From assembly GCA_021432635.1 (NCBI GenBank), contig MU270026.1, forward strand, positions 186,001 to 250,000: a stretch of 64,000 nucleotides of DNA, given 5' to 3'. Positions 17,166 through 64,000 of this stretch are shown here, piece after piece. The notes beneath the pieces are model-generated. The model searched no databases and had not been told where the DNA came from. It saw nothing but the letters and a program-made list of their open reading frames with translations. The position numbers and the translations under genes are program-made. Source of the DNA: Thozetella sp. PMI_491. Taxonomy: Eukaryota > Ascomycota > Sordariomycetes > Chaetosphaeriales > Chaetosphaeriaceae. Numbering within the stretch: the stretch's first letter is position 1; every line of letters begins with the position of its first letter.

Positions 17166-18158
17166 GTCTCTGGTAATGATTATGGATTGGCTCGATGGGT
17201 ATGGCGGTGGGGCTGCCTCCGCGCAGAGAGACAAGCAGCCGCTAACCAAGGGGAGATGGTTCTAATCTTTCTTGCCCATTTCAGAATCTTGCGTCAAGGC
17301 GAGCCTACAGAGGTTAGCCACAGTACCAATGATATAGTTCCCCTACCTATAACTATGCTTCACTAGTTTCGTTACATTGTAACCTCTGCACTGCTGGAGT
17401 ATAGTGCCTACTCGCTGTAGCACAAAGGCAGAATCGGTCAGCAGGAGACGTGAAGGAAATATTACTATATAGACAATGCCTTTCTTAAAGAGACTTAGCG
17501 TAGTATGCAGAACTTCCAAGATGGGCCTCTGTGCAGCTTCATCTATAGCCCATCCACAGTCACATACCTGTATAGTACGATGGCTCCAGAAGCGGCTAGT
17601 TAGGGGTTGGGGGGGGAGGGCGCCACTATCGTCATGTTGAGACCCGGCCGATAGGGATCCTGATTCTTTGCATCACGGTTTCCACTCAGGCCGTCTCAAT
17701 GCCCTTTCCCTAGTCACATTCTGCTGACATGTCGCGCCTCCAACCGGGAATGACAGCTCTCGCTCCGCAAAGCTAGCAAATACCTAGCTAGAGCTTTCCT
17801 ACTCAATTCAACGTTGATCGTACTGGCACACAGCGAGAAGTGTCCCGGGGTGAACCTAGATTTCGATCCTGGCTCTTGAGGCGTCAGCCTAATGCCGGTG
17901 CCGTGCTCTTCGGTCCCGGCGAGGCTCACCCAGACCGCGCCACGTACTTCTCGACACATTGCTAGCTAGCGCGATGAGAGGGAAAAGCGACGAGACTGAA
18001 AAAGCGCGTACAAAGGGAATCGGACGTGTAGGTCCCCGCATTCTGGTTTCGCCCGAAAAACCACGCTTATTTGCTGTGCTGGCAGTGTAGATCTTACAAT
18101 TATACTGCACCTAATAGCTACGGTATTGTTAAATACAGTTAAAATAGTTAAATTCGGT
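17166..18158. other. Gene-free flank left of the AT-rich element
   Basis: About 1 kb of sequence with rising A+T towards the transposon. Short ORFs here look spurious. I see no gene. Confidence 0.4.
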
Positions 18159-18166
18159 TTTATTAA

Positions 18167-18256
18167 GGGAATTACTAGGGACGCATAACGAATTACTACA
18201 GACGCATGATCTTACAGACGCATAACGGTTTTACCGCTTCTTATTGGCCTAAATTT
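18167..18256. repeat. Left terminal inverted repeat
   Basis: Begins GGGAATTACTAGGGACGCAT and ends near TTATTGGCCTAAATTT. It contains three GACGCAT words as subterminal repeats. It matches the reverse complement of 21501-21590 apart from about six transitions. Confidence 0.85.
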
Positions 18257-21200
18257 TCAGTGCCTATAACTACTTGCCCTATAAAGGCGGTGAGTAAAAC
18301 TCACTAATAATAGCCCTCTCTTACACTAGTAATCCTTAGATAGGTAGCTGAGTATCTTGTTGAGATTTTATAATAGCTGTTATAGAAAGTGAGTATATTA
18401 AGCCTATAAAGTATAACGACTGTTATATAAAGTGCTAGAGATGCTTAATATATTACTAGCTATTATTTATATAGCTATAATAATTATAGCTAATACTAAG
18501 GTCTCTTGTTATTATTATTTATCTACTCTTACTAGCTTCTCAGCCTTTAAATGCTTAGCTAAGTCTTTTAACTACTTATATATACCCTAGTTATTACCCT
18601 AGTACCTAGGGTAGCTAGTACTTATTAACTACTTTAATACTATAATACTTCTCCTCCTTCTAATAACTAGCTGCCCTAAGCTTTTTCAAGCTTTAATTAG
18701 GTAAGTATAGCCTTATTCTGGCTTTTTAAAGGTTAGCTATAATAGCTAGTTAACTAGCTATTATTTTAGGTTAATAACTAGCTTTAATTACCTATATATA
18801 GTTAGACTAGTAGAGGCTATATATTATTACTTAGCTTGTTATATAGTAATATAATAATCTTTAGGTTATAAATCTACTGATAAAGATCTTTAAAGGTTAG
18901 CTTATAGATATATTATTATAGATAAACGTCTTACTTAATAAAGACATTTTTAGTCTTTAAGACCTTATAGATCTTATAATAGTAAGGTATGCCTAGCTAG
19001 ATAAAAATAAAGTAATTGTTATTATAAAAGCTGATTAGTTATAGCTTAAGATTTTTAACTAATAGAATTACTATCTTTGCCTTATAATATAGTATAATAA
19101 TAAGTTAAAGATCCTTTTTAAATACTATTATCTGTAATTTATCTAGGTATTCCAACCTAGGTCTTAAATACTTATAAGAAAAAAGTACCTTGTCTTATAT
19201 ATAAGTATAGATAAAATCCTTCTCTTAATTACTAAGTATTTCTTTAATAGCTTTAACTAGTTAATATAAGTAGTTTATACTATTTAAGAGGTAGTTTTTA
19301 ATATTATTATTACTTATCTCTATCCTAGATATAACCTAAATACTAAAGTTTTAATACCTTTAAATATAATACTAGGCCTACTAGGCTTATATACTTATAT
19401 ATATCTAATAAAGATATATAAAAATAACTCTTTAGTTATTAAATTCCTTATAAATATTAGCCTAAGCCTCTTTATACTTCTCTTTAGTCTTAGCAAATAT
19501 AACAAACTTTTAAAGTATTAATACCCCCTTATAATTATAAGTAATTAGCCCTAAAAAGGTTTTATCTAGCTTTTTAATATTTTAGATTATATCTTTATTA
19601 TTAAAATTAAGTAAGACCTAGACTTCTTTATTACTACTGTTAATATTATTATTATTTAAAGTAAAAAGTTGTTTCTACTTTCTTTTTAACTAGAGAAAAA
19701 TATTTAAATTAATATAGTAGATATATAGCTATTATTATATATCTAGAAAAGCAGCTCTAAAAGCCTTTTTTATCTATATATTAAAGTTAGTAATTACTAT
19801 ATTAAGAAGTTAAATCTTATACTAATTAGTTAGTTTTTAAACAGTATTAGCTAGAAATTAAAACCCTTTAAGCCTCTTATTATTAATTATGCTAAATATA
19901 GTATTAAAAATAGTTTTTAGATAGGTCTAGCTAGTCACTTAAAACAAAGGAAGCTTATAATAGTTAGTATTATAAGTATTATTAAAACTTATTACCTTAA
20001 AAAACTGCTTTTATAGTTATATATAAGAAGGATAGGTCTATATAAGTCCTAATAGATAGTTTAAATTATTATCAGCCTATTTTATAATATAGGGAATCTT
20101 TTTATTATTAAATAACTTAATTAAAATAATAATAAAGCTATAATTATTAAGCTTTTCCTAGTTGTTTTTTACCCTAGTATTATAAATATCTTTCTTAGTT
20201 AAAACTAATTTAAGGTACTACTTAGTAATAATTACCTAGATGTTATATACTTAGATATTTATTTATTAACTTATTAACTTAATTAACTCTTTAATAAAGT
20301 TAATAAGCCTTTTATAAATAGAATATGTAAATAAATTAATATTAAGTATATAATTATATTAAAGGTGCTTTAAGTTAATATATTTCTAAAGAAGCTATCT
20401 GCCTTTCTTAAGGGCTTTAGTAATAACTTTTTACTTATAGTTATACTTCTAAGGCTTTTAATTCTAGAGTTTTTCCCTCTTATTAGGCTAGGGTGTTTTA
20501 TAGTGGTTATATTAAAAAGTATATTGTATTACTTAACTATTTTAGGTATAACTATTATATCTACTAATAATAAATCTATTAACTTTATTAAAAGTATTAA
20601 CTATATTAAAAAGCTCTTCTATAAAAACAGCTAGTTTATCTAGTATAAGTAGGTTTAAAATCAGAGATATAACTAATTTATTAAACTCTAACCCTAATAT
20701 ATAACTACCTTACTTTATTAATAGGCCTAAATATAAAGGTAGGGCTTCCCCTAAAGGGGGGGAGATTAAATCTTAAAGTAGAGAATATCCCTATCTCTCC
20801 TACTAGTAATAAACTTATTTATATAATTATATAAGGTTAAAGATAAGTTATTAATCTATATTAATTACCTCTTAGACAAGTTTTAAGGTAGAGGTAAATT
20901 AAGCCTAGGATAATATAGCTAAAGTTATAATAGGTAATAACTAGAAAGTAGCTTAATTTTAAAGATAGGTAATTTTAATAGACTTAGGGCTTAGGATAAA
21001 AATATAAATATAATTTTATTTTACTTATTAGGGATATTTAGTAAATCAATCTAGTAGATAGATCTTTAAATCACTCTTAATAGTCTATAAAGGGTTATTA
21101 AACACTTTATTATATAGGTAGGAAATAGTTATAAAGTATTTTAAAAACATAGAAAAAAGGTTTAGTATAGTATTATTATTACTAACACTATAGTAGAGAC

Positions 21201-21500
21201 TAACACTAGTTCCTAAGGTATTAATGATATCTGACAAACTAAGGGAGCTAGGTATTAGGTTTTAGTGTTATTATTTAGGAGGCGGCTGTTTTAAATGAGT
21301 TATAGTATTAAAGCGTTGCCGCTGTTAGCTTTTGATCGGGCGAATAGGGATAGGTATTAGGTTGTTATTATTATAGTTTAACTAAAGCTTTTTAAAGAGG
21401 TAATAAGACGTGTTTGTATTAGCTTAATTAAAGAAAAACAGCTAAAATAGCTTGGGGTATTTTGGCAGAATTTTAAGTGTGGTATATGTATTAATATTAA

Positions 21501-21590
21501 AAATTTGGGCCAATAAGAAGCGGTAAAACCGTCATGCGTCCGTAAGATCATGCGTCCGTAGCAATTTGTTATGCGTCCCTAGTAATTCCC
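21501..21590. repeat. Right terminal inverted repeat
   Basis: Reverse-complement partner of the left terminus, with ATGCGTC words in place of GACGCAT. It retains more C/G at the variable positions than the left copy. Confidence 0.85.
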
Positions 21591-21598
21591 TTTATTAA

Positions 21599-22420
21599 TA
21601 CTGTTGTAATATATTATAAAATAGTTCTTTATTAGTCTATACCACATCAACACTACGATAAAACATAATTATACAGGCCTCCTTTAACTCACATGTAACC
21701 GGTTGCTGCCCGCAGGCATTGGGGCACCCTTGGCCTAAGAGCAAGCCAGCTGGCGACCAGCTGGCGGCAGGCAACGCAACACAAGTCAAGATCAGGAACG
21801 CCTTCTACTCGTACAAGATGTATATACTTTAGACTAGGAACGCCTGGAAGAGGGGGAAGGAACACAAACCCTACGCCTCCTACGCCTCTACACAAGGGGG
21901 AAGGAGAAAACACAATCTAGGGAACGAGATGGAAGAGATAAAGACCCCGGAGGAGAGCGCTCACGAAGCCGCTCTTCTTTTCCCTCCTTTTTCAGTCAGG
22001 GTGTTTTCTAGCTAGGCAGTCCGTTGAATATAACCACCTCATTTGGCTATATATGGCCTAGACAGTAAACTCCTAGGCTTATAGATTAAATGCTAAAGGT
22101 AGGCATATCGACCCTTTCTAAAAAAGGCTAGAATTTATATTTGGACTAATTGGGGTTGGGGCTAGCAGGGGCTGCGCTGAGTTCGCCAGGCGGTTCTGGT
22201 CGAACGCCCGCAGGACACTACTACAAACTAAAACCCACCCGCAGAGATGCTAAGAGACTGCGTACAGCACAAGGATGCGAAGTACAAGTTGACATATTCG
22301 CCAAGACCACAGAGACCTTTCAAATGTGAGGAGGGCTATTTTGTGGGAAGCCGATTGGATTTCCTTCAGCCCGGCCCTGGGGGATTCTAGAAGAAGCCGA
22401 AGGCTTTACCCTTGTGTGCT
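21599..22420. other. Intergenic, right flank of transposon
   Basis: No gene recognised. Base composition returns to normal near 21,680. Short ORFs (for example at 21689-21913) have no family features. Confidence 0.4.
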
Positions 22421-53693: not shown

Positions 53694-55113
53694 CGTGTGC
53701 TCTGGGAGCCAAGACTCAATTCTCAGGAGCCGTCTGTGGTCTCTGGCAAGCGAGATGATTTGCTGGGAGCTGATGAACGGCTTGGCCGTGGACGACGTCA
53801 AAGTGCGGGGTGCCGGGGGGGTCGGGTGCCCATGATAGGCTGCCTATGACGAGCATACCTACACCTTGACATAATGCCTTAATAATCGAGGCGGCCGGTG
53901 ATTCGCGAAAGAAAGTTTTGCCGATACTTGGCTGGGAGGCACGGTCGCAGTCGTAGACTGGCTGCATCGATGCACGATTGGCTTGACAGTCGAGTCTGAA
54001 GCCTTATGCAAACTCAAGCGCCGAGCTGGTGTCTTGGCTCCACCGGCGTGGTGTAGTAGGTGAAAGACTTCTTCATGGGCGTCACCACCTAAAAGTTTCT
54101 CTATGCATTGAATAGTACCTTGTTTACGAGCAGAGTATTGAATTTTATTTCTTCTTTCTGTCCTCCTCTCCCCCTCCTTGGACTGTTCGTCTAGATGCCA
54201 CGCACAATTGAGACCAATAGCCATACGTCTACGTGGTTACCGAATAGTACCTTGGTTGCGACTGGAGCATTGACCTTGGCTCTTTTCTTTTTCTTCCCTT
54301 GTGTTAATCTGTTCGTCTGAACTTTGCGTGAAGTGCGCCGCCGAGACGAAGTGCCGAAAGCTTAGCTAATGAATAGCTTCCCTGCTTGCGAATGGCGCAT
54401 CGAATTTTCTTTTCTTTTTCCTTTCTTCTCCGAGCATGACGATGCGCTCGGACTGCAGCGAAATCCAATGGAACGCTGCTCAAGCATTGCGGTGTCGACT
54501 GGTAAGGTAATTGCAGCACGATCCCAAGAGGGGTCGTTGGGGAACGGCACGATGCCAGATTTTGCGGGGGAGCCCAAAATCAAAATGAAAGGAAGGCCGG
54601 CGATCGTCACGATCCACGGAAGGCCGAGTCTTAAGTGATTAGCCGGAATGTTCTAGTAAAACCAGGAGGCATAAGCCGACCTTCTGGAAGAATAGCCAGC
54701 ACGTTTCGGCGTCGGCCGGCCACATACAAGCTGAAACCGGGCCTTTGCTTCGACGCCCACGTTTCTCCTGCGTCTCCAAAGCTGATCATCCCTCACCCGA
54801 TTTTCGAGCCGCATTTCGGCGCACACAGACTGTGCAGTGCCGTCGACTGAGCTGCACACGCGGCATGCACGATGGCTCGCGGCTCGGCCAGTGCGGGTGG
54901 CCACGCGCTGCCGACTCTTGCCGGTGCGACGATGAAGCTGAGTGGCTCCTATATGGATCTTCCTAATTTCCAGTGGTGGCCGGCATTGCCGTTCTCCGTG
55001 CCAGCTCACTTGGCGTTTGTGATATTTATCCTTCCGCCCTCCTCCTACATGCCAGCTTTCATGTTCTCGCACCTTTTCCATCGCTACCTCTATCGCTACG
55101 ACGTGCAGGCACG
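53694..55113. other. Intergenic with three diverged ~130-bp repeats
   Basis: About 1.4 kb without a recognisable gene. It contains the repeat set at 54111-54480 and the promoter of the surface-protein gene. Confidence 0.45.
54111..54480. repeat. Three diverged ~130-bp tandem units
   Basis: Units start at AATAGTACCT (54111), AATAGTACC (54243) and AATAGCTTCC (54372), spaced 132 and 129 bp. Each continues with TTGTTTACGAG/TTGGTTGCGAC/TGCTTGCGAAT, a GCATTGA/GCATCGA word and a TTTCTTTTTCTT pyrimidine run. Confidence 0.5.
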
Positions 55114-56346
55114 ATGTGGTTACTACGGCAAACAGTACTAGCTTCCTTGGTGTTGACACTGGCCTGCACAGCCAGCGCCAGTCGCGATAACCATGAGGCG
55201 GCCGCGAGGAGAGAGCTCTCTCCTGGCCTTCCAGCTCCTACCAGGGTCGCTGCCCTTTACCCTCGCCAGGACCCCGGCAGCGGTCAAAAAGGTGGTGGGG
55301 GCGGCGACGACGGCCAGGCCCAGCAACAGGCCCAGCAACAGCTGCAGCAGCAGCTCCAGCAACTCTCACAGTCCTTCAGCCAGCGGCTCTCGCAGGTGAC
55401 GCAGCAGGCATCGCAATCGCTGTCTCAGCTGTCGCAGTCTGTCCAGCAGTTCCAGCAGAGTGTGGATTCCATCCGGCAGTCTGCCGACAGCGCCATAAAC
55501 AGCGTGCGCTCTTCGGCGGACTCGCAGGCCCGGCAGTCCGTCTCCAGCGCCGCCTCCAGCGCCGCTTCCAGCGCCAGCGTTGCCATCGCCAGCGCTCAGG
55601 CAGCGGTCTCTGCAAACACGTGCCCGACGTGTGCTACGTGCCCAACCTGCCCAGATGCGCAGGGGGCGCCGGCTGCAACGGTGACGGCGTTCGCAACGGT
55701 GACGGAAACCATCAAGATCAACGGCGCCTCCATTGAGACCGATGCTCCTGCTGCCGCGGCAGCCGCGCTACCGGCGCAGAGCTGTGCCGCAGATCCAGAA
55801 CAGGTACGTATTTGTTGCATCTCGTCTCAAGAACCTTCGAGCTAACTGGTATAGACAAACGCCAAGCAAGCAGAGCAGCAGCAGACGTCAGGTTTTGACA
55901 CGTGCACAACGGCCGGCAAGGCTCTGGCTATTATTGGCCTCATCTTAGGCGTTGTTGGGTTATCCGCGCTAGGCTTCACCATCTGGAGCATCCGCCGGCG
56001 ACGAACCTGGGACTCGAGGTCGGAGAGTTCTGAGGCAGGGAACAACATCACCTCGCCCGTCGGCCTCGGTGGTGCGGGTGCTAAAGGAGGCCTCGTTGAG
56101 AAGTGGCGGAACGGGCTCAGCAACGACGGCTCGCGACCGGCCAGCCCTGCGAGCAACTACAAGGACATCAAGCCGATCCGGCCTGTTCGCACCAGGGCCC
56201 CGCTGAAGGAAAGCATCTCCAAGCCCATCAGGATGAGCTTTTGGCGATGGAGGCGCGAAAGCGATGACCGACTTTCGTTCCAAGATATTGGAGCGCCTAA
56301 CATGTCAACGAGGACGAACACTGGCGGCCGGAATGATTACCCATAA
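55114..56346 (+). CDS. Single-pass surface protein with Gln/Ser-rich ectodomain (Mid2-like)
   Basis: Predicted type I membrane protein. Exon 1 is 55114-55803, a 51-nt intron covers 55804-55854 (GTACGT to TATAG) and exon 2 is 55855-56346, giving 393 residues. MWLLRQTVLASLVLTLACTA is the signal peptide. The ectodomain is rich in Gln and Ser: a Gln block around residues 68-90, then coiled-coil-like QS repeats (SQSLSQLSQSVQQFQQSVDS, SADSAINSVRSSADSQARQS). A short Cys pattern TCPTCATCPTCP follows at ~175-186. ALAIIGLILGVVGLSALGFT is the TM helix, followed by RRRRTW and a basic, Pro/Ser-rich cytoplasmic tail. The layout recalls fungal cell-wall sensors such as Mid2/Wsc, but no WSC domain is present. 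The Cys motif could dimerise or bind metal. Confidence 0.7.
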
Positions 56347-57065
56347 CTGAAGGGAACGGATTATTTGTCCGCTGATTTCAGCGACTAAGCTGGCGCGTAT
56401 CTGTACGCTAGGTTGGAATGGCCCGGATTGTTACCCGGGAGGTACCTATACCCCGGACGCAGTTTTGTTCTTTTTGTAGATATTTAGTTAGTAGATAATG
56501 CGGTGCTCGGACCTGTGCGGTCAATCTGATCAAACTTGAAAGCGGAAATCTCGAGATGTTCAGGCAAGTTGCGAACTAGGGCAACCCGGTGCAGATCGAG
56601 CGAGACGGTCGAGGTGGTCAAGTCACGCCGGCGGAAGTTGGTCGGTGCGCCGTATCTTAATAGGTATATAGCGAGGCAACATTTTACGCGATTGGACTTG
56701 AGCTGCGTCAAAATCAAAGGGGGCCCCGGTGGAATACCGAGCCCCGTACTCTGTATATGTGAGATAAGAGGGCTGGTGCCAGTGCTGTGCAGTCTTTTGC
56801 TTGGCAGCCCAAGTTGGCGTTACACGGATAGACGAGGACCACGCTTGCCCTCCGAGCCCCTGCCGCTGCAACCAGCTAATGTCAATCTCTGAGGCCAGCA
56901 CGATCCTGGCCTGTGGCCTGCAGGGGGTTTTCTAACTTTGATTCGCGCTGGGTATTAAGAGAACGCCTCTCCCAGCCCTACCACAAGCGCGGAACGCCAG
57001 CTATCTACGCTTCCGCTTCTTTTCGGCACATATCCCTAACGGCCTACCTCGCCGTCGCTCCAGCG
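56347..57065. other. Intergenic
   Basis: About 720 bp; no gene seen. Promoter of the Cys-rich secreted protein. Confidence 0.4.
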
Positions 57066-57582
57066 ATGCTACTCCTGCGCCTGGGACTCGCCCTCTCGGC
57101 GCTTCATGCCGCCCATGCCACCAATTGTGATTTTAAGGGCGGCTTCGCGATGCGGAAGCCCGGAGGTTGCTCCGGCTCGCAGGTTCGTTGCGAACGGGGC
57201 GTGCAGCCGCGGTGCTGCCCGGGTTCATTCAAGTGCTTCGGACAAATCGACAGCGCCTACTGCTGCCCGACCGAGAGTGACTGTTACGAAGATGTCTTTA
57301 ACAAGCCCCGGGTGCGTCCGCCAGCGAGAGACGATAAGAGAGTGCTTTTCTGACTCAATCCCTCTCCAGTGCGCAAACAGCAGCTGGTCTCTTTGGGATA
57401 ACACAGGATCCGTCGAGGACGGCGCGTGGTGCTGCGACGCTGGGTACTTCGGCCTGGCGACACTCCCACACTCGGGGAACGGGGGTGGCTTTGGCTGCAC
57501 TCAGTTGGGCTCGTCTCTCGGTTCGTATCAGGCTACGGCTACCGCGGCTCGAAATCTTGAATCGACGTGCGCAGATGCTTAA
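57066..57582 (+). CDS. Small secreted cysteine-rich protein
   Basis: Exon 1 is 57066-57311, a 58-nt intron covers 57312-57369 (GTGCGT, TCCAG) and exon 2 is 57370-57582, giving 152 residues. MLLLRLGLALSALHAAHA is a clear signal peptide; the mature part of ~134 residues has 14 Cys, including CC pairs in QPRCCPGSFKC, SAYCCPTESDC and AWCCDAGYF. This even number and spacing point to a disulfide-bonded extracellular domain. No family recognised. Small Cys-rich secreted proteins of fungi are often wall-, surface- or host-interaction factors, but nothing here shows which. A second open frame overlaps the 3' end to 57814 and might be an alternative C-terminus, though no good splice leads into it. Confidence 0.75.
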
Positions 57583-58369
57583 TGCTGGAGCACCGCAGTC
57601 GCCAGATTGGTCACAGTTGCCAATAAAAGTTGAGGAGGAGCCGACCCAAGGGTACCTGACACAAGCCTACGAGAGCCAAAGATATTACGCACCCCTCTAC
57701 GAGGCTCCAGGGGCCGAAATCCGAGCATATGATGAATTAGAAGCTCCCAGTGTGCAGAACTATGACATAACAGCCCGGGACCGGACGACACATGCGACCG
57801 ACACGTCCAGATAGAAGCCATCTATGCGCAGCTGCCTAGAATCTAGAGTACTTACAGGCTATGTTTGGTAATCGGTAGCTTTTTTTTTTAATCACATCTA
57901 GAAGTGAAAATCGTCAGTGGAAGGAGGATGCAAGCTCGAAACAGAAAGTACTCGAGCCATAGTAGGCATATTTCCAAAAAAACAGCATGTGTCATGGTTT
58001 AGACTACCGAATTTGGCTGGCGTGGAGCTGCGGTTTTCCGCAGTCCAAACCATCTGGCTAAGTATATGTGGGTCGTCGTGGATGTACCTCTTGGCGTTCC
58101 CGATACCCGCCCAGGGCCACCAGACCAGCCATAGCCAGAACTCGGGCTGCCAACAGGAGATAGTGATTGGCCATCTCTTCAGCCAGCGGCCGGGCTGTAT
58201 GTTAGACAAGGAAAAAAAGAAAAAAAAGGATATAAGTCGCCACCCCCCTCACCCACTTCCTACGACTATGCACCCCAATAGCAGAATCACATAGTGTGTC
58301 CTCTACCTGCCTGACATATTCGGTACACTGCTAACAATTGACGAATGCAGGTGTCGGTGTGCCTAAAAT
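57583..58369. other. Intergenic before the recombinase gene
   Basis: About 790 bp with no gene. A T9 run near 57882-57890 and A runs at 58213-58228. If the recombinase is a Starship captain, the left end of the element should lie here; I could not identify it. Confidence 0.4.
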
Positions 58370-61300
58370 ATGGAGGCAGCGGCCGCAAGAGTCCGAGCGC
58401 AGCGGGCTCAGCTCACGCAACCACGCCAGAAGCCACTAACCTCGGAGAAGCTTCAAGCATGCTACCATCGAGCAAACCGGCGACGCCCTATACGGCGACC
58501 ACGCGCGCCAAGAACCATAATAAATGATGTCTTAACGCTGCAACGATGGAAATTGTTTGCATCTCATTTCGAAGACCCCAAAGGCCGAGACTGGAAGGAG
58601 CTTGTTAGAGCCTTGTCCTGGGATGAAAGAGGCCTCGTGGAAGCGTATGGTAAATGGGCGATGGAAAGAGCCGGAGCAAGAATCAAAAGCGAGAGTGCGG
58701 TGCGTAGGTACTTCCGGAATTTATCGGCGCTCTACTTCAGGTTTAAAGGGGAACATTTGGACCTTCGACTCCGGGACCACATGCTGACTGTGGTACGATC
58801 GGAAATCACCCCGAACTACGGACTGCGAACGGAACCAAAGCGCAAAAACATCCTTGGGCCTCGCGCTTTCACCTATCTGGTTCACTTTGCGTGGGTTCGC
58901 TGGCGAAGACCTTTCAAAATTGGCCTCGACCGGAGCGATCACGTACTTTGTGAGATGCTCGAAGAATGGACTGGTTGCCGCCGGCATGAGTTGGTATACG
59001 CCAGCCAAGATATCGACACCTATATGCGGCAATACGACGAAGAGTCGGATGCCTTCACCGATGTCGAGGATGCCTCAGACAATGACGTTATGAAGCAACC
59101 TAAGAAGTGCTGGACCTGCAGTGAGCTGGATGGCAGGACCCACCCTCAGTACCAAGTCATCTGCTGGGAGGATGTGACCCTTGGTATTCTTCGCGACCCT
59201 TTCGACACCGGCCGAGATGTATTCACGATGGACATCATGCTGAGATTCCACAAAAATCACAATAAAGAGACACGCCCGACCAAGTTCCACTTTGAGGAGG
59301 AGGAATATCCCCTTCTCTGCCCTATCGCCATCCTTATCTCCAAGGCAGCTGCTGAGGGTGCGATCGATTTCACCAAATTAGGCATCGATGTCTCCGAAAA
59401 GAGTATGGAAGACATCATTTGCGCTCTCTATAACACCAAACTCCACCGTCCATCAGTCACGATACCCTGGAAGAAGGAGTTCTGGCATAGGCCAGTATTC
59501 CGCAAGACAGCATTCACCGCCGAGGGCAAACCAGTGAAGACAGATCAGCCTGTCACGGCGGCAATGCATGACAACAATCTTCGTAACCACGGAAAGGATG
59601 CAGGTCTGCCAGATAATTTGAAGTCATACGACTTTCGTCGAGGGAACTTAGACACTCTTGAGAGTAAGTTGTTAACGCCGGCCTAGATTGTACTCTGCTG
59701 ACACTTTAGAAGCGAATTTCAACCCAGCCACTCGCAATCGTGGAGCAAGACACCGGCCCGGCACCACTGTATTTGAGACGTTCTATTACGGTGACGGCAT
59801 GAAGTGCATCACCCAGAATGCGTTCCTGGGGCGCGGCGCTCACTCGCCCCTCCTGGATATTGTTAATTATATTGGGGTCATTTATGACGAGAATGCCCCG
59901 ACAGAAGCAACGGAGGAGATGATGCGTGCTGTCGGGTACAGTGAACTTGTGGTTGAGCTCGACCAAGAGCTGGCTGCCCTTGAGGCTGAACTTCGATCCA
60001 AGTACGGGAGCATCAGACTGTCCACACCAGCAGAGAGGGAACAGCACGCCAAGTTACAGACTCGCCGACGATATGCGAGGCAGACGGATCGAAGGCGGAC
60101 TGGCCAGCTCTTCCGCAAAGATTACTTCGACACGAAAAACAATGAGGAGCTCAGCAGACAGCTACAAAGCGAAACGCGACCAGAGACCAGTGAAACGCTC
60201 CGGCAAGTTTATTTCAGTTGTCCGGAACGGAGACGGATTGCCGCTCTTGCCGGTGATTTCGATAGTGAGCTTACTGAAGCGGAAAAAGTACAGAGGAAGG
60301 TCGACTGGACCTTAGCCTTGTTCCATTATGCCTTTGTGGTCGAACAAAAGGAGCCACTTGAAGCGACATATAATGATATGACCCAGCCGAAACTAGAAAA
60401 CGCAAAGCCCCCACACCGTCCATGGTTTACATCCATGATCCAAGACCCGGCAGGACCACCGGTTTGGGCGCCAGAGTTCAGTACAATGAAAAATATCCCT
60501 CCCAAGGCAAGAAAAGGCCCATACGAGTGTCCATTTTGTAGAAAACGGCCCAAGAGGAGAGCAACGATGTGGAACTGCGCCGACCGGCATCTCAGTCGCA
60601 TGACGGCCGGCATTCTCTGCCCACGTTCGAATTGCACATCTCAAGGCACCTCCTTCGAGAGCGAAATGGAGTTCAAGAATCACATGGCAGCGGACCACCA
60701 AATATACCTCAGGCCCATAGCAGGCAGCTACGAGGTTGCATTTACTCATTGCGAGATGACGCATGACATTACCGTTGGAGAATCGCCAACACCTGTTGCA
60801 CATGGAGACGAGCTCTTGATGGACGATATAACAAGCGAACATGCACCTCCCTTGATATATCCAGAGCCGGATAGTGGGACCTGGGCCTCGACTTTTGCTG
60901 TATCCAATGCGAAGGCGGAATCAGTCGGGGTTGCAGACTCAAGAGCGCTGCTTTTGCCCGGCCCAGAGAATGACTTTACCACAGAGCAGCTGAACAGCAG
61001 CCTTGACGAGTTCACTTTGCCGGATCAATGCTACGGCTGGGCATTGCCACCTACGGCTGAGGAAGTCGAGATGTTTGATGGAGGGTTACAGTGCCTACAG
61101 GACATAGGCGACAACATTATAGACCCAACTCTCCGAGATGGCATGATATCGGGTCGTCAGCCAGGAGAAGCAATCGTCGCTGAAATCTGGCCTGGAGACT
61201 CAGAGCCGGAGCCAGAACCCCCGTCGCCAGCCCCCGAATCGGATCCGACCTTCTCGGGTTTGCCTCACAGAGCATTGGAGGCCCTTACTATGGACATCGA

Positions 61301-61568
61301 TACACACTGCCAGAAAGCCCCAGAGCCGGGAGACGGATTATGGAACGTGGACAGTCTAGTCGGTCGGTACTCGGAGACATGTCTTCTGAGGGGTCGGGAG
61401 CGAAAGGAGGTAAAATATCGGGTCCGCTGGGAAGGCTGTGAGGACAAGGATGATACATGGGAGCCGAAGTCAGAGCTCTTGAGAGGTGGAAAAGAGGTCC
61501 GAAAAATGGTAAAACAATTTGACATTGACTACCCATTAGTGGAAGGCGATATCGACCTGACTAGTTAG
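58370..61568 (+). CDS. DUF3435/FluG-type tyrosine recombinase with C-terminal chromodomain
   Basis: DUF3435 (FluG-domain) proteins are the tyrosine recombinases that move fungal Starship elements, though not all members are captains. Exon 1 is 58370-59663, a 46-nt intron covers 59664-59709 and exon 2 is 59710-61568, giving 1050 residues. Residues ~60-460 carry the recombinase: RRYFRNLSALYFRFKG, EWTGCRRHELVYASQD (box-I Arg 204/205), KSYDFRRGNLDTLE (position of the H-x-x-R box, here D421-F-R-R424) and TTVFETFYY (candidate Tyr457/458), then the typical CITQNAFLGRGAHSPLL. A basic/coiled region follows, and near 703-760 a zinc-finger-like segment (YECPFCRKRP, LCPRSNCTSQG, FKNHMAADH). Residues ~976-1035 form a chromodomain: WNVDSLVGRYSE, KYRVRWEGCEDKDDTWEPKS. 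It points to the right edge, as a captain at a left end would. Confidence 0.82.
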
Positions 61569-61935
61569 GTGAATTTTCTGCTGATAAATGTTGTTAACTC
61601 CTCTGCGCCCTCCCGGGAAGCGTAGGGAAGATCACTTGAGGTAGCTTTTGTTAGTCTCTTGCTTGCTCTTCCTTTGGGACTGGTTGCCCGAGGTAGTACT
61701 TGGCTGGGCAAATAGGGTTAAGGCGTCAGAAATGGTCCGTGCTCTCCGGGCTATCTGTACCGACTTTGCGAGAAATGAGCCCTCAGTCAGGCCACTAAGC
61801 CCGAGTTGTGGCGCTATAAGGCCGGAGTTGCCACAAGCCGGGCCCGTGGCCGATACAGCTTTGTATAAATCAACGTCCTCCACGTTTTCAACGTCTTCAA
61901 ACTTTACCACCGCCTGATAGACACCTTCGTGGACC

Positions 61936-62321
61936 ATGGCGCTCTATACTCTCCAAAACGCCGAACGACGTGAAGCCCAGATAAAGGCGAAGCGACTCGC
62001 GCTTAAGGTGCTGCGAAGGCGAAGGACAATCCTCAATTCTGTCCACCGGTTTTTCAACGAATTTGGGCTACGGGCCTACGTGCATCTCGAAAAGTATGGC
62101 AGGGCCGGCAGTTATGATGTCTATACCTCACTAGATCCGTTACACCAGTCGATCGTAGGTTGAACTTTGCCTGCACGCACTGCAGAGGTTCTTCGCTAAT
62201 CATACAGGCGAAATGTTACCCCTTGCCTATTGTGTATACGCCTGGTAATGTGGCTACGCTGTGGAAAGGCACGAGGGCAGGTAAATACAAGACGAAGACT
62301 GGTAGGAACCTAGAAGCTTAG
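61936..62321 (+). CDS. Small MADS/SRF-like fungal protein
   Basis: Exon 1 is 61936-62154, a 53-nt intron covers 62155-62207 (GTAGGT, CTAAT branch, ACAG) and exon 2 is 62208-62321, giving 110 residues. The N-terminus is strongly basic (AKRLALKVLRRRRTILNSVH), then FFNEFGLRAYVHLEKYGRAG and YDVYTSLDP. This resembles short fungal proteins with a truncated MADS-like fold (KRRxxLLKKAxE ... VYVxIxxxGRYYTYxS). The spliced second exon gives AKCYPLPIVYTPGNVATLW, like the YPLP-x-TP ending common in such proteins. Function unknown; possibly DNA-binding. It may be cargo of a mobile element begun by the recombinase. Confidence 0.5.
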
Positions 62322-62860
62322 TCCGGCAAGCAACCTATAGAAACACTATGAGGGCTTACATCTTGGCATAAACGAATGGTTAGGTTGTCTTCGGAATCGT
62401 ATGCCCTACCCCCTTACGATCTAAGAGAGGAAATTACACTGCTACTGCCCGACTCAGCAGCCGTTGCATTTAGGGAGTCATTAAGTTTAAGCCGTTAGGA
62501 CAACCAGGGCCCACCGGGGGTCAGCAGGCAACACAGGAAGTTACCAAAGCAAAGGAAAGGTATGTGCCCAGTCTATCGACGCGGGCAAGGGAATAAGGGA
62601 TATAAGAGCTAGCTAGCGATTATGTGATTGCAAGAATCGCCTAGAATAGAAGGTTCTATACTCTTTATAAATAGCTGGATGCGCGTGGCTGGGCAGGGTT
62701 GGAGGGGGTAAATATTGCAGTGAAATTCTGCAAACACCCGGATGTAAGGTTCGTAGAGGTTACAGCGTGCTTGCTCGCATAGTTACTGTAGCTCTGTACC
62801 AGCTCTTCTCTATTTTCGTACAAGGATTGGGACAGGCTATACTGGCTTTCTCTCCTTTAG

Positions 62861-63229
62861 GATATAGAGGACAGGCTCTTCGATCTCAGGAAGCCTGACT
62901 CGGACGGATTCGTCGACGTCCTCGTGGCCAACGGGCCGGCGAGCGCGCCAGCGCCACACCGGCATGTCGTGGTGGACCTTGTGGGAGACACGGCCCCCAG
63001 AAGAACACCAAGGGCGAAAGGCCGGCCGACCGGCGATTGGATGCCGGGTAACCAGTTGGAGAGGACCAGTCAGGGGGGCAGAGAACCAGTCAGTGGGACA
63101 GAGAACCGGCCAGGGGGAGAGAACCGGTCGGGGGGACAGAGAACCGGTCAGGGGGACAGAGAACCGGTCAGGGGGACAGAGCCAGTGAGGGAGACCGAAA
63201 ACCCGGATCCCTTCCCTAGTGTTTTATAG
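62861..63229 (+). CDS. Possible exon with minisatellite (uncertain)
   Basis: An open frame begins after an acceptor-like TCTCCTTTAG: DIEDRLFDLRKPDSDGFVDV, then VANGPASAPAPHRHVVVDLV, and ends in Gly/Arg/Glu-rich repeats encoded by the 20-bp minisatellite. The first 50 codons look like real protein, but no start or upstream exon was found between 62322 and 62860. It may be a gene remnant. No family recognised. Confidence 0.3.
   Translation, partial: DIEDRLFDLRKPDSDGFVDVLVANGPASAPAPHRHVVVDLVGDTAPRRTPRAKGRPTGDWMPGNQLERTSQGGREPVSGTENRPGGENRSGGQRTGQGDREPVRGTEPVRETENPDPFPSVL
63063..63190. repeat. Tandem repeat, ~20-bp unit GAACCGGTCAGGGGGACAGA
   Basis: Units begin GAACCRG at 63083, 63103, 63121, 63141 and 63161, with partial flanking copies. 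The last two full units are identical, so expansion is recent. Confidence 0.8.
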
Positions 63230-63304
63230 CAGGGTAGGCTAGAGGACTAGACCGTTGGAGAAAGTGGCACTGCTTGTCCAGCCTCTAGCGAGACTGTCCA
63301 TCGC

Positions 63305-63906
63305 CTAATCTACAAAGAGAAACTGCCCCGAGACCGCACCCATGATCACCAACAAGAGTGCGGTGTACTTGTTGGTGAACTTGTACAGAACCGCAAGGGA
63401 AAGCATGTACAGAACCGCCGCCGGGCCCACCTGAGCGGTTTTGTCAATCACCTCCCCAATAGGCATGTCCTTCAGCTTGTCCAGGGAGCCTTCAATACTA
63501 GCCTTGAGAATCCTGTACTACCCCGCCACAGGCATAAGAGCTTATTGGAATGCGTGTCCTGCCGGTGACTAGCCGAGGAAGCGGTTCGCCTTCCCGTACT
63601 TGAGCCTTATCTCGGGGCGGCGCAGAAGTTCTGCAGCAGGGGCTTCAACTAGAACACCACGCGACTTGCTCTTATAGAATGCACAGTCGCATTCAGCCGT
63701 AGAAGCGTCAACAGCCCGAAAATTGGCTACATTGAATCAGTATAAAGCTCAAGAGACGTAAATCGGCGGAAACCCGTACCTCCCTCCAACCTCTTCTCCC
63801 AGCACGACCAGCTTATTTCCGACACCACGGTCGAAAGATACTCAGTTTCGCCTCGCACTATTCTGAAAAGGTAAACTTCCTCGAAGAATAGTACTAGTGC
63901 GTCCAT
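63305..63906 (-). CDS. Small membrane protein of unknown function
   Basis: Three exons join in frame: 63906-63780, 63726-63600 and 63512-63305, giving 153 residues; the introns are 53 and 87 nt, both with a GTACGG donor. The start MDALVLFFEEVYLFRIVRG precedes a soluble part with RAVDASTAECDCAFYKSKSR and EAPAAELLRRPEIRLK, then SIEGSLDKLKDMPIGEVIDK and two hydrophobic helices (PAAVLYMLSLAVLYKF and TALLLVIMGAVSGQFLFVD). Stops in both introns make the splices necessary, and both keep the frame. The C-terminal double helix ending GQFLFV is reminiscent of short fungal membrane proteins of unknown role. The true start could be upstream if another exon exists. Confidence 0.6.
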
Positions 63907-64000
63907 TGGAGGAAGGATAGTTGAAAGAGGTTTGTAGGTACAGTCTCAGAATGTGGCATCAGAAAAGGAAGGTGAGCAGATACGTGGAGTTATGGGGCAG

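Follow-up and report, generated by a model that had tools for sequence, protein, structure and literature searches.

Analysis of a 64,000-nucleotide stretch of contig C12 (C12:186001-250000 of a 72.3-Mb assembly, judged to be fungal from its gene content; the whole stretch is referred to below as the window) identified a two-exon gene at positions 58370-61568, whose predicted product of 1050 aa combines a DUF3435 tyrosine-recombinase domain with a chromodomain in a single polypeptide. The interpretation that we favor, with a probability of roughly 0.5, is that the gene encodes the captain-type recombinase of a fungal mobile element with dispersed copies, to which a chromodomain would have been added at the C-terminus.

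Gene structure and domain composition

The coordinates, the length of 1050 aa (plus stop) and the splice given in the original prediction were all reproduced. The parts of the gene and its product are as follows, with positions counted in the window:

58370..59663, + strand: exon 1, encoding the N-terminal part and most of DUF3435 (with R204, E207, K295 and Y420-x-x-R423)
59664..59709, + strand: intron of 46 bp, GT-AG type (GTAAGT...TTTAG)
59710..61568, + strand: exon 2, encoding the end of DUF3435 with Y457, the zinc-finger segment, an acidic linker, the chromodomain and the stop
58874..60296, + strand: DUF3435 tyrosine-recombinase domain, aa 169-627, split by the intron (Pfam PF11917, E-value 3.2e-44; supported also by the genome-wide search)
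60528..60698, + strand: zinc-finger-like segment, aa 705-761 (sub-threshold in Pfam; fingers judged by eye)
61341..61535, + strand: chromodomain, aa 976-1040 (Pfam PF00385, phmmer against the PDB, AlphaFold model, fold matches)

In the hmmscan search of Pfam, DUF3435 was matched over aa 169-627 (E-value 3.2e-44, 151.9 bits) and Chromo (PF00385) over aa 996-1024 (E-value 5.9e-7, 29.7 bits, against a gathering cut-off of 25.1), which bears out the earlier claim that both domains occur in a single protein, each above its cut-off. Exon 2 (1859 bases, uninterrupted by stops) matches both families even by itself (DUF3435: E-value 1.5e-14, Chromo: E-value 3.3e-7), so that the fusion is independent of the splice, as had been argued from the location of both domains in one exon. 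The alternative frames of this exon contain 24 and 30 stops, and those of the last 126 codons contain 7 and 5; of 10 blocks across the protein, 8 have their lowest GC content at the second codon position, the chromodomain block (0.59/0.40/0.55) among them. We regard the fusion of DUF3435 with a chromodomain as real. An annotation artefact, i.e. two genes or a wrong splice mistaken for one gene, is very improbable: the gene model was indeed built from the sequence alone, but both domains are encoded in the single exon of 1859 bases, with no stop between them. Recombinase activity, on the other hand, would depend on the splice, because the presumed catalytic tyrosine (Y457) is encoded in exon 2 and the unspliced reading frame terminates ahead of it, at 59686. 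The zinc-finger-like segment had also been predicted, and here the outcome is mixed: the second finger is complete by eye (C735, C740, H756, H761), whereas the first one is degenerate, with M729 in place of the missing final His, and the top Pfam matches (E-values 0.035 and 0.037) remain below the cut-off.

The recombinase domain contains the candidate catalytic residues R204, E207, K295, Y420-x-x-R423 and Y457. According to the alignment, R204 is common to a DUF3435 relative encoded on contig C74, while E207 and K295 are common to the relatives on C74 and C28; Y457 was paired by eye with the relatives on C74 and C22. For the captain of Sanctuary the residues R260, A263, K308, Y424, R427 and Y458 are given, of which Y424 and Y458 correspond to the pair of tyrosines that HhpA reportedly requires (PMC12506042). 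R204, E207, K295, Y420, R423 and Y457 can be read as their respective counterparts, by motif rather than by protein alignment, and the captain-type signature R..K..Y-x-x-R..Y, matched in the same manner, is present. In the original prediction the H-x-x-R box was described as D-F-R-R, which left the activity in doubt; these were the wrong four letters, and the box is Y-D-F-R (Y420-x-x-R423), with Tyr as in the Sanctuary captain. That prediction therefore stands in its reading of the protein as a captain-type recombinase fused to a chromodomain, but not in its doubt about the box. By eye, the Y-x-x-R box of the C74 relative seems to be without its Tyr, which implies that this residue is not universal in DUF3435. 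A structure model of exon 1, based on 3 sequences, was unusable (pLDDT 41.8). There is good support for reading the protein as the captain-type recombinase of a mobile element, possibly a Starship. The genes on C74 and C28 (C74:212378-213370 and C28:267379-268367) represent a second DUF3435 gene type, which has an open frame on C74 but contains stops on C28. On C22 (C22:152316-160420, L007 and L050), a DUF3435 gene with sub-threshold C2H2-like fingers is located ~6 kb from a DUF3723 gene, in what resembles a Starship-like pair.

All 48 PDB sequences that matched exon 2 at E-values up to 1 (phmmer) align to the chromodomain stretch, the best of them being CDYL (E-value 7.7e-4). The AlphaFold model of the domain (pLDDT 75.7) exhibits the three-strand sheet and C-terminal helix characteristic of chromodomains, and fold comparison revealed its resemblance to the chromodomains of HP1, Chp1, CDY and CHD; a Foldseek search with the same model gave no match at an E-value of 0.001 or better. 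The positions of the three-aromatic cage of HP1-type methyl-lysine readers, which we take to be W976, W1005 and C1008 in this protein, are aromatic in two of three cases: W976 and W1005 are kept, and C1008 occupies the third position, where the chromodomain of a protein encoded on C4 has Tyr in the alignment. The cage is thus incomplete. The C4 protein possesses the closest other chromodomain in the genome (46% over 43 aa). Our chromodomain alignment (A2) comprises 7 of 16 matches, with seven that contain stops, L016 and L023 excluded. Related open frames ending in a chromodomain (EAEWEVxKIL...) were found at C118:105503 (L019) and C22:19624 (L016); by eye they are not retroelement polyproteins, and the two perhaps represent a small family of chromodomain genes.

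The repeated left boundary and the extent of the presumed element

The gene is preceded by the following feature:

57971..58369, + strand: region upstream of the recombinase gene, presumed to include the left (5') end of the element; starts TTCCAAAAAAACAGCATGTGTCA, with the boundary shared by dispersed copies

The ATG at 58370 lies 400 bp inside the boundary at about 57971, from which the gene reads inward, and a TATA-like GATATAAG was noted by eye near 58229. A DNA search with 57000-58369 revealed 8 places in the genome, including 7 besides the window, each of which starts at 57969-57976; one more left-end copy, on C18, was recovered when the gene itself served as the query. The boundary is sharp in all 8 of the other copies examined: the 80 bp inside it align with z-scores of 7.7 to 17.5 versus shuffles, compared with -2.3 to 1.3 for the 80 bp outside. 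A pattern for the 23-letter core was matched 7 times when as many as 3 mismatches were allowed, and its reversed control not once; the pattern missed the copies on C5, C62 and C25 and added one on C30, which is known by the pattern only and brings the total to 10 left ends, the window's included, nine of them examined. The left-end alignment (A1) covers 8 of the 9 left ends then known, the copy on C25 (interrupted by an insertion) being left out.

Six of the 8 other copies end after about 60-180 bp with no recombinase remains, so that an independent short repeat located upstream of the gene is a lesser possibility. The C3 copy, in turn, keeps the upstream region as far as 58252, and the C18 copy, the only one that runs on into the gene, reaches 58413, beyond the ATG; 13 of the 16 N-terminal residues are retained there, and one stop is present. 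On the strength of these two copies we read the boundary as the element's own left end, and since it lies 400 bp upstream and the C18 relic extends into the first 16 codons, the recombinase gene most probably occupies the first position in a mobile element. The possibility that the left end belongs to a MITE with inverted ends was considered and set aside, as neither the 8 other copies nor 56501-64000 contain an inverted copy (best match with 8 mismatches of 22); likewise, the left terminus did not recur in inverted orientation within 6 mismatches of 23 in the window and the next 10 kb.

A search of the genome with the whole protein returned five matches, namely its own two exons, a fragment on C25 (aa 460-598, two stops), a fragment on C14 (aa 261-328, two stops) and the C4 chromodomain, with no second copy of the chromodomain part of the gene surviving among them. 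Across 389 bases, 49 differences separate the C25 fragment from the gene; 35 of them are C>T or G>A changes, which in our reading is a signature of RIP. No left end was found adjoining the C25 and C14 relics in the flanking DNA examined. Exon 2 had no matches in viral contigs, and exon 1 gave 9 pattern matches but no relatives in bacterial and archaeal genomes. A locus on C25 (C25:60001-63167, L047) contains a left-end copy a few hundred bp from the border of a RIP-degraded AT-rich block (GC about 0.2), which lies on the element side. The window itself includes an AT-rich block at 18001-22000 (GC 0.20-0.37 per kb), which between 18500 and 21500 has a TA/AT ratio of 1.67 and a (CA+TG)/(AC+GT) ratio of 0.25 and looks like a RIP-degraded repeat.

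On the downstream side, one further feature was delineated:

63512..64000, + strand: stretch 3' of the gene of which C14 and C5 carry diverged copies (on the reverse strand there); may belong to the element or be a repeat in its own right

Diverged copies of 63512-63755, of 63860-64107 and of two stretches further downstream occur no more than 1 kb from the C14 relic, an arrangement suggesting that the element may extend beyond 64 kb. On C5 a copy of 63518-64179 is present with no adjoining recombinase piece, so that this stretch may be an independent repeat. Comparison of 13 loci (on C14, C5, C28, C18, C25, C21, C3, C153, C37 and others) with 55000-64000 plus 10 kb yielded scattered blocks only and no common right end, and neither a direct repeat nor cargo was found in the window and the 10 kb downstream of it. 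None of the 4 genome matches to DUF3723 and none of the 25 to patatin is located on C12; together with NLR and ferric-reductase genes, these are the accessory genes associated with Starship cargo. The ~5 kb 3' of the gene contain scattered copies of other repeats, beyond which lie genes for a GT34 glycosyltransferase and then a photolyase, both of which look like host genes. A minisatellite of six 20-bp units is present at 63060-63181, with copies on C28 and C153. The region C14:1014381-1039287, which comprises the recombinase relic together with the copies of the downstream stretch, and a patatin match some 23 kb further along, is possibly an old Starship remnant.

These observations have to be weighed against other explanations of the gene. 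It could be the recombinase of a solo or short element of Crypton size, or a relic of one, with no cargo and with an incidental chromodomain; we consider this a genuine possibility, albeit one with less than even odds. The lack of DUF3723 and patatin on C12 fits such an element, as do the scattered repeats that soon give way to host-like genes, and DUF3435 genes are reported to be solo more often than associated with Starships (PMC12134995). Yet the frame is intact across 1050 codons, unlike the relics on C25, C14 and C18, and cargo may still lie further downstream, because the right end was not located. Starships span 15 to about 700 kb (PMC12134995). Nor does the sequence decide between a captain and a solo gene, since in the tree described in the same source captains are scattered among solo DUF3435 genes and do not form a separate clade.

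The fusion might also have arisen by a chance run-on of the recombinase into a neighboring or captured chromodomain gene, with no role in targeting. This would agree with the incomplete aromatic cage, with the similarity (46% over 43 aa) to the nearest other chromodomain and with the absence of a second fusion from the genome, where the relics are limited to aa 460-598 (C25) and aa 261-328 (C14). It is rather unlikely in our view, for the core, the fold and the codon bias of the chromodomain have been retained, and a separate chromodomain gene conserved at the far end of both Sanctuary and Frontier suggests recurrent use. Still less probable is a domesticated host gene, in which a former recombinase now serves as a chromatin- or DNA-binding regulator. 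A single intact copy amid relics is what domestication could leave behind, and domesticated Crypton recombinases joined to other DNA-binding domains are known (PMC3212892); but the domesticated DUF3504 proteins described there are devoid of most of the catalytic tetrad, whereas the catalytic residues are retained here, and the gene still adjoins the repeated left boundary.

Possible chromatin contact and choice of insertion site

If the gene indeed encodes the captain-type recombinase of a mobile element, the boundary at about 57971 would be the left end of that element, and the enzyme would, in the manner assumed for HhpA of Hephaestus, use short direct repeats as the sites where it cuts and joins DNA. 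Its N-terminal part and zinc-finger segment would read DNA, while the chromodomain would tether the recombinase to chromatin, through a histone tail or the nucleosome, and thereby bias or stabilize the choice of site. How Starships choose their insertion sites is not settled, with the captain family and direct repeats thought to matter (PMC12134995), and the idea that a Starship chromodomain gene could aid targeting was called purely speculative by its authors.

Steering into RIP-type heterochromatin should result in AT-rich flanks. The 1400 bases outside the left end have a GC content of 0.46-0.57 and a TA/AT ratio below 1 in all nine left ends analyzed (the window's included), so that none of the nine left flanks is AT-rich or RIP-like, and this counts against the targeting of constitutive (RIP-type) heterochromatin; on C25 it is the inside of the left end that is RIP-degraded (GC 0.25). 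The comparison covers left flanks, and copies inside AT-rich DNA are harder to detect; facultative chromatin of the H3K27me3 type, moreover, need not be AT-rich. The flanks also tell little about the fused chromodomain as such, because the window's copy is the only one to keep that part of the gene. Together, C1008 in the cage and the ordinary GC content of the flanks make strong, HP1-like reading of H3K9me3 less likely than a weaker or different contact with chromatin.

Chromatin-guided insertion by the fused recombinase is thus plausible, though unproven. The stronger proposition, that a captain-type tyrosine recombinase carries its own histone reader and that a Starship-like DNA transposon picks its sites by chromatin state, we regard as doubtful at present; the chromatin read in this way would perhaps be facultative, H3K27-type or gene-proximal, rather than RIP-type heterochromatin. 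In Verticillium, H3K27me3 in Starship regions was reported to be the same as in other adaptive regions (PMC12289983). If the proposition is true, chromatin-guided site-specific recombination would be encoded by a single protein. The combination of reader and recombinase in one polypeptide makes the targeting idea directly testable by removal of a single domain.

Comparison with known systems

Chromodomain-bearing integrases of Ty3/gypsy chromoviruses were reportedly described by Gao et al. in 2008. They resemble the present protein as integration enzymes of mobile elements with a C-terminal chromodomain, but they are integrases of retroelements, whereas here the domain is attached to the putative tyrosine recombinase of a DNA element. 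Another partial parallel is CryptonF, a group of tyrosine-recombinase DNA transposons that also possess an additional C-terminal domain (PMC3212892). There, however, the extra domain is GCR1_C, which is absent from the Pfam families reported for our protein up to an E-value of 10 (HMMER filters drop most matches above about 0.1), and the catalytic tetrad is R-H-R-Y, with Tyr at the H position in the present sequence. HhpA, the captain of Hephaestus, shares the DUF3435 domain, and its required residues Y381 and Y416 can be read as counterparts of Y420 and Y457; the account of HhpA in PMC12506042 mentions no chromodomain, and movement was reported for Hephaestus, while the present element is a putatively mobile one.

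The closest counterparts are Sanctuary from Bipolaris sorokiniana, which carries a captain gene and, separate from it, the last gene ROU50, whose product has a chromodomain (PMC12506042), and Frontier, with a separate CHROMO-domain protein at its far end (PMC11857905). Sanctuary shares with the present gene the DUF3435 captain, the Y-x-x-R active site and a position close to the 5' edge (about 350 bp from it), although its captain is shorter (786 aa) and has a predicted C-terminal DNA-binding domain. In both elements a chromodomain protein is part of the same element, for which heterochromatin targeting was proposed as a speculation, but it is the product of its own gene at the opposite end.

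We found no fusion of a captain with a chromodomain in the open-licence PMC literature, and reports in subscription journals are possible. Among the literature matches listed, only the Sanctuary and Frontier papers hold both DUF3435 and a chromodomain, as separate genes. In the relevant passages of further papers, the chromodomain belongs to an rve integrase (PMC8547959), to LTR elements with no recombinase-chromodomain fusion (PMC6338049) or to host-TE fusions other than with a DUF3435 recombinase (PMC10799480), or else Chromo and DUF3435 are mentioned in unrelated contexts (PMC10691877) or within an orthogroup list (PMC9426589), again with no fusion. Compared with the separate-gene arrangement of Sanctuary and Frontier, a chromodomain fused to a captain-type recombinase beside a repeated edge of a putative mobile element appears to be new.
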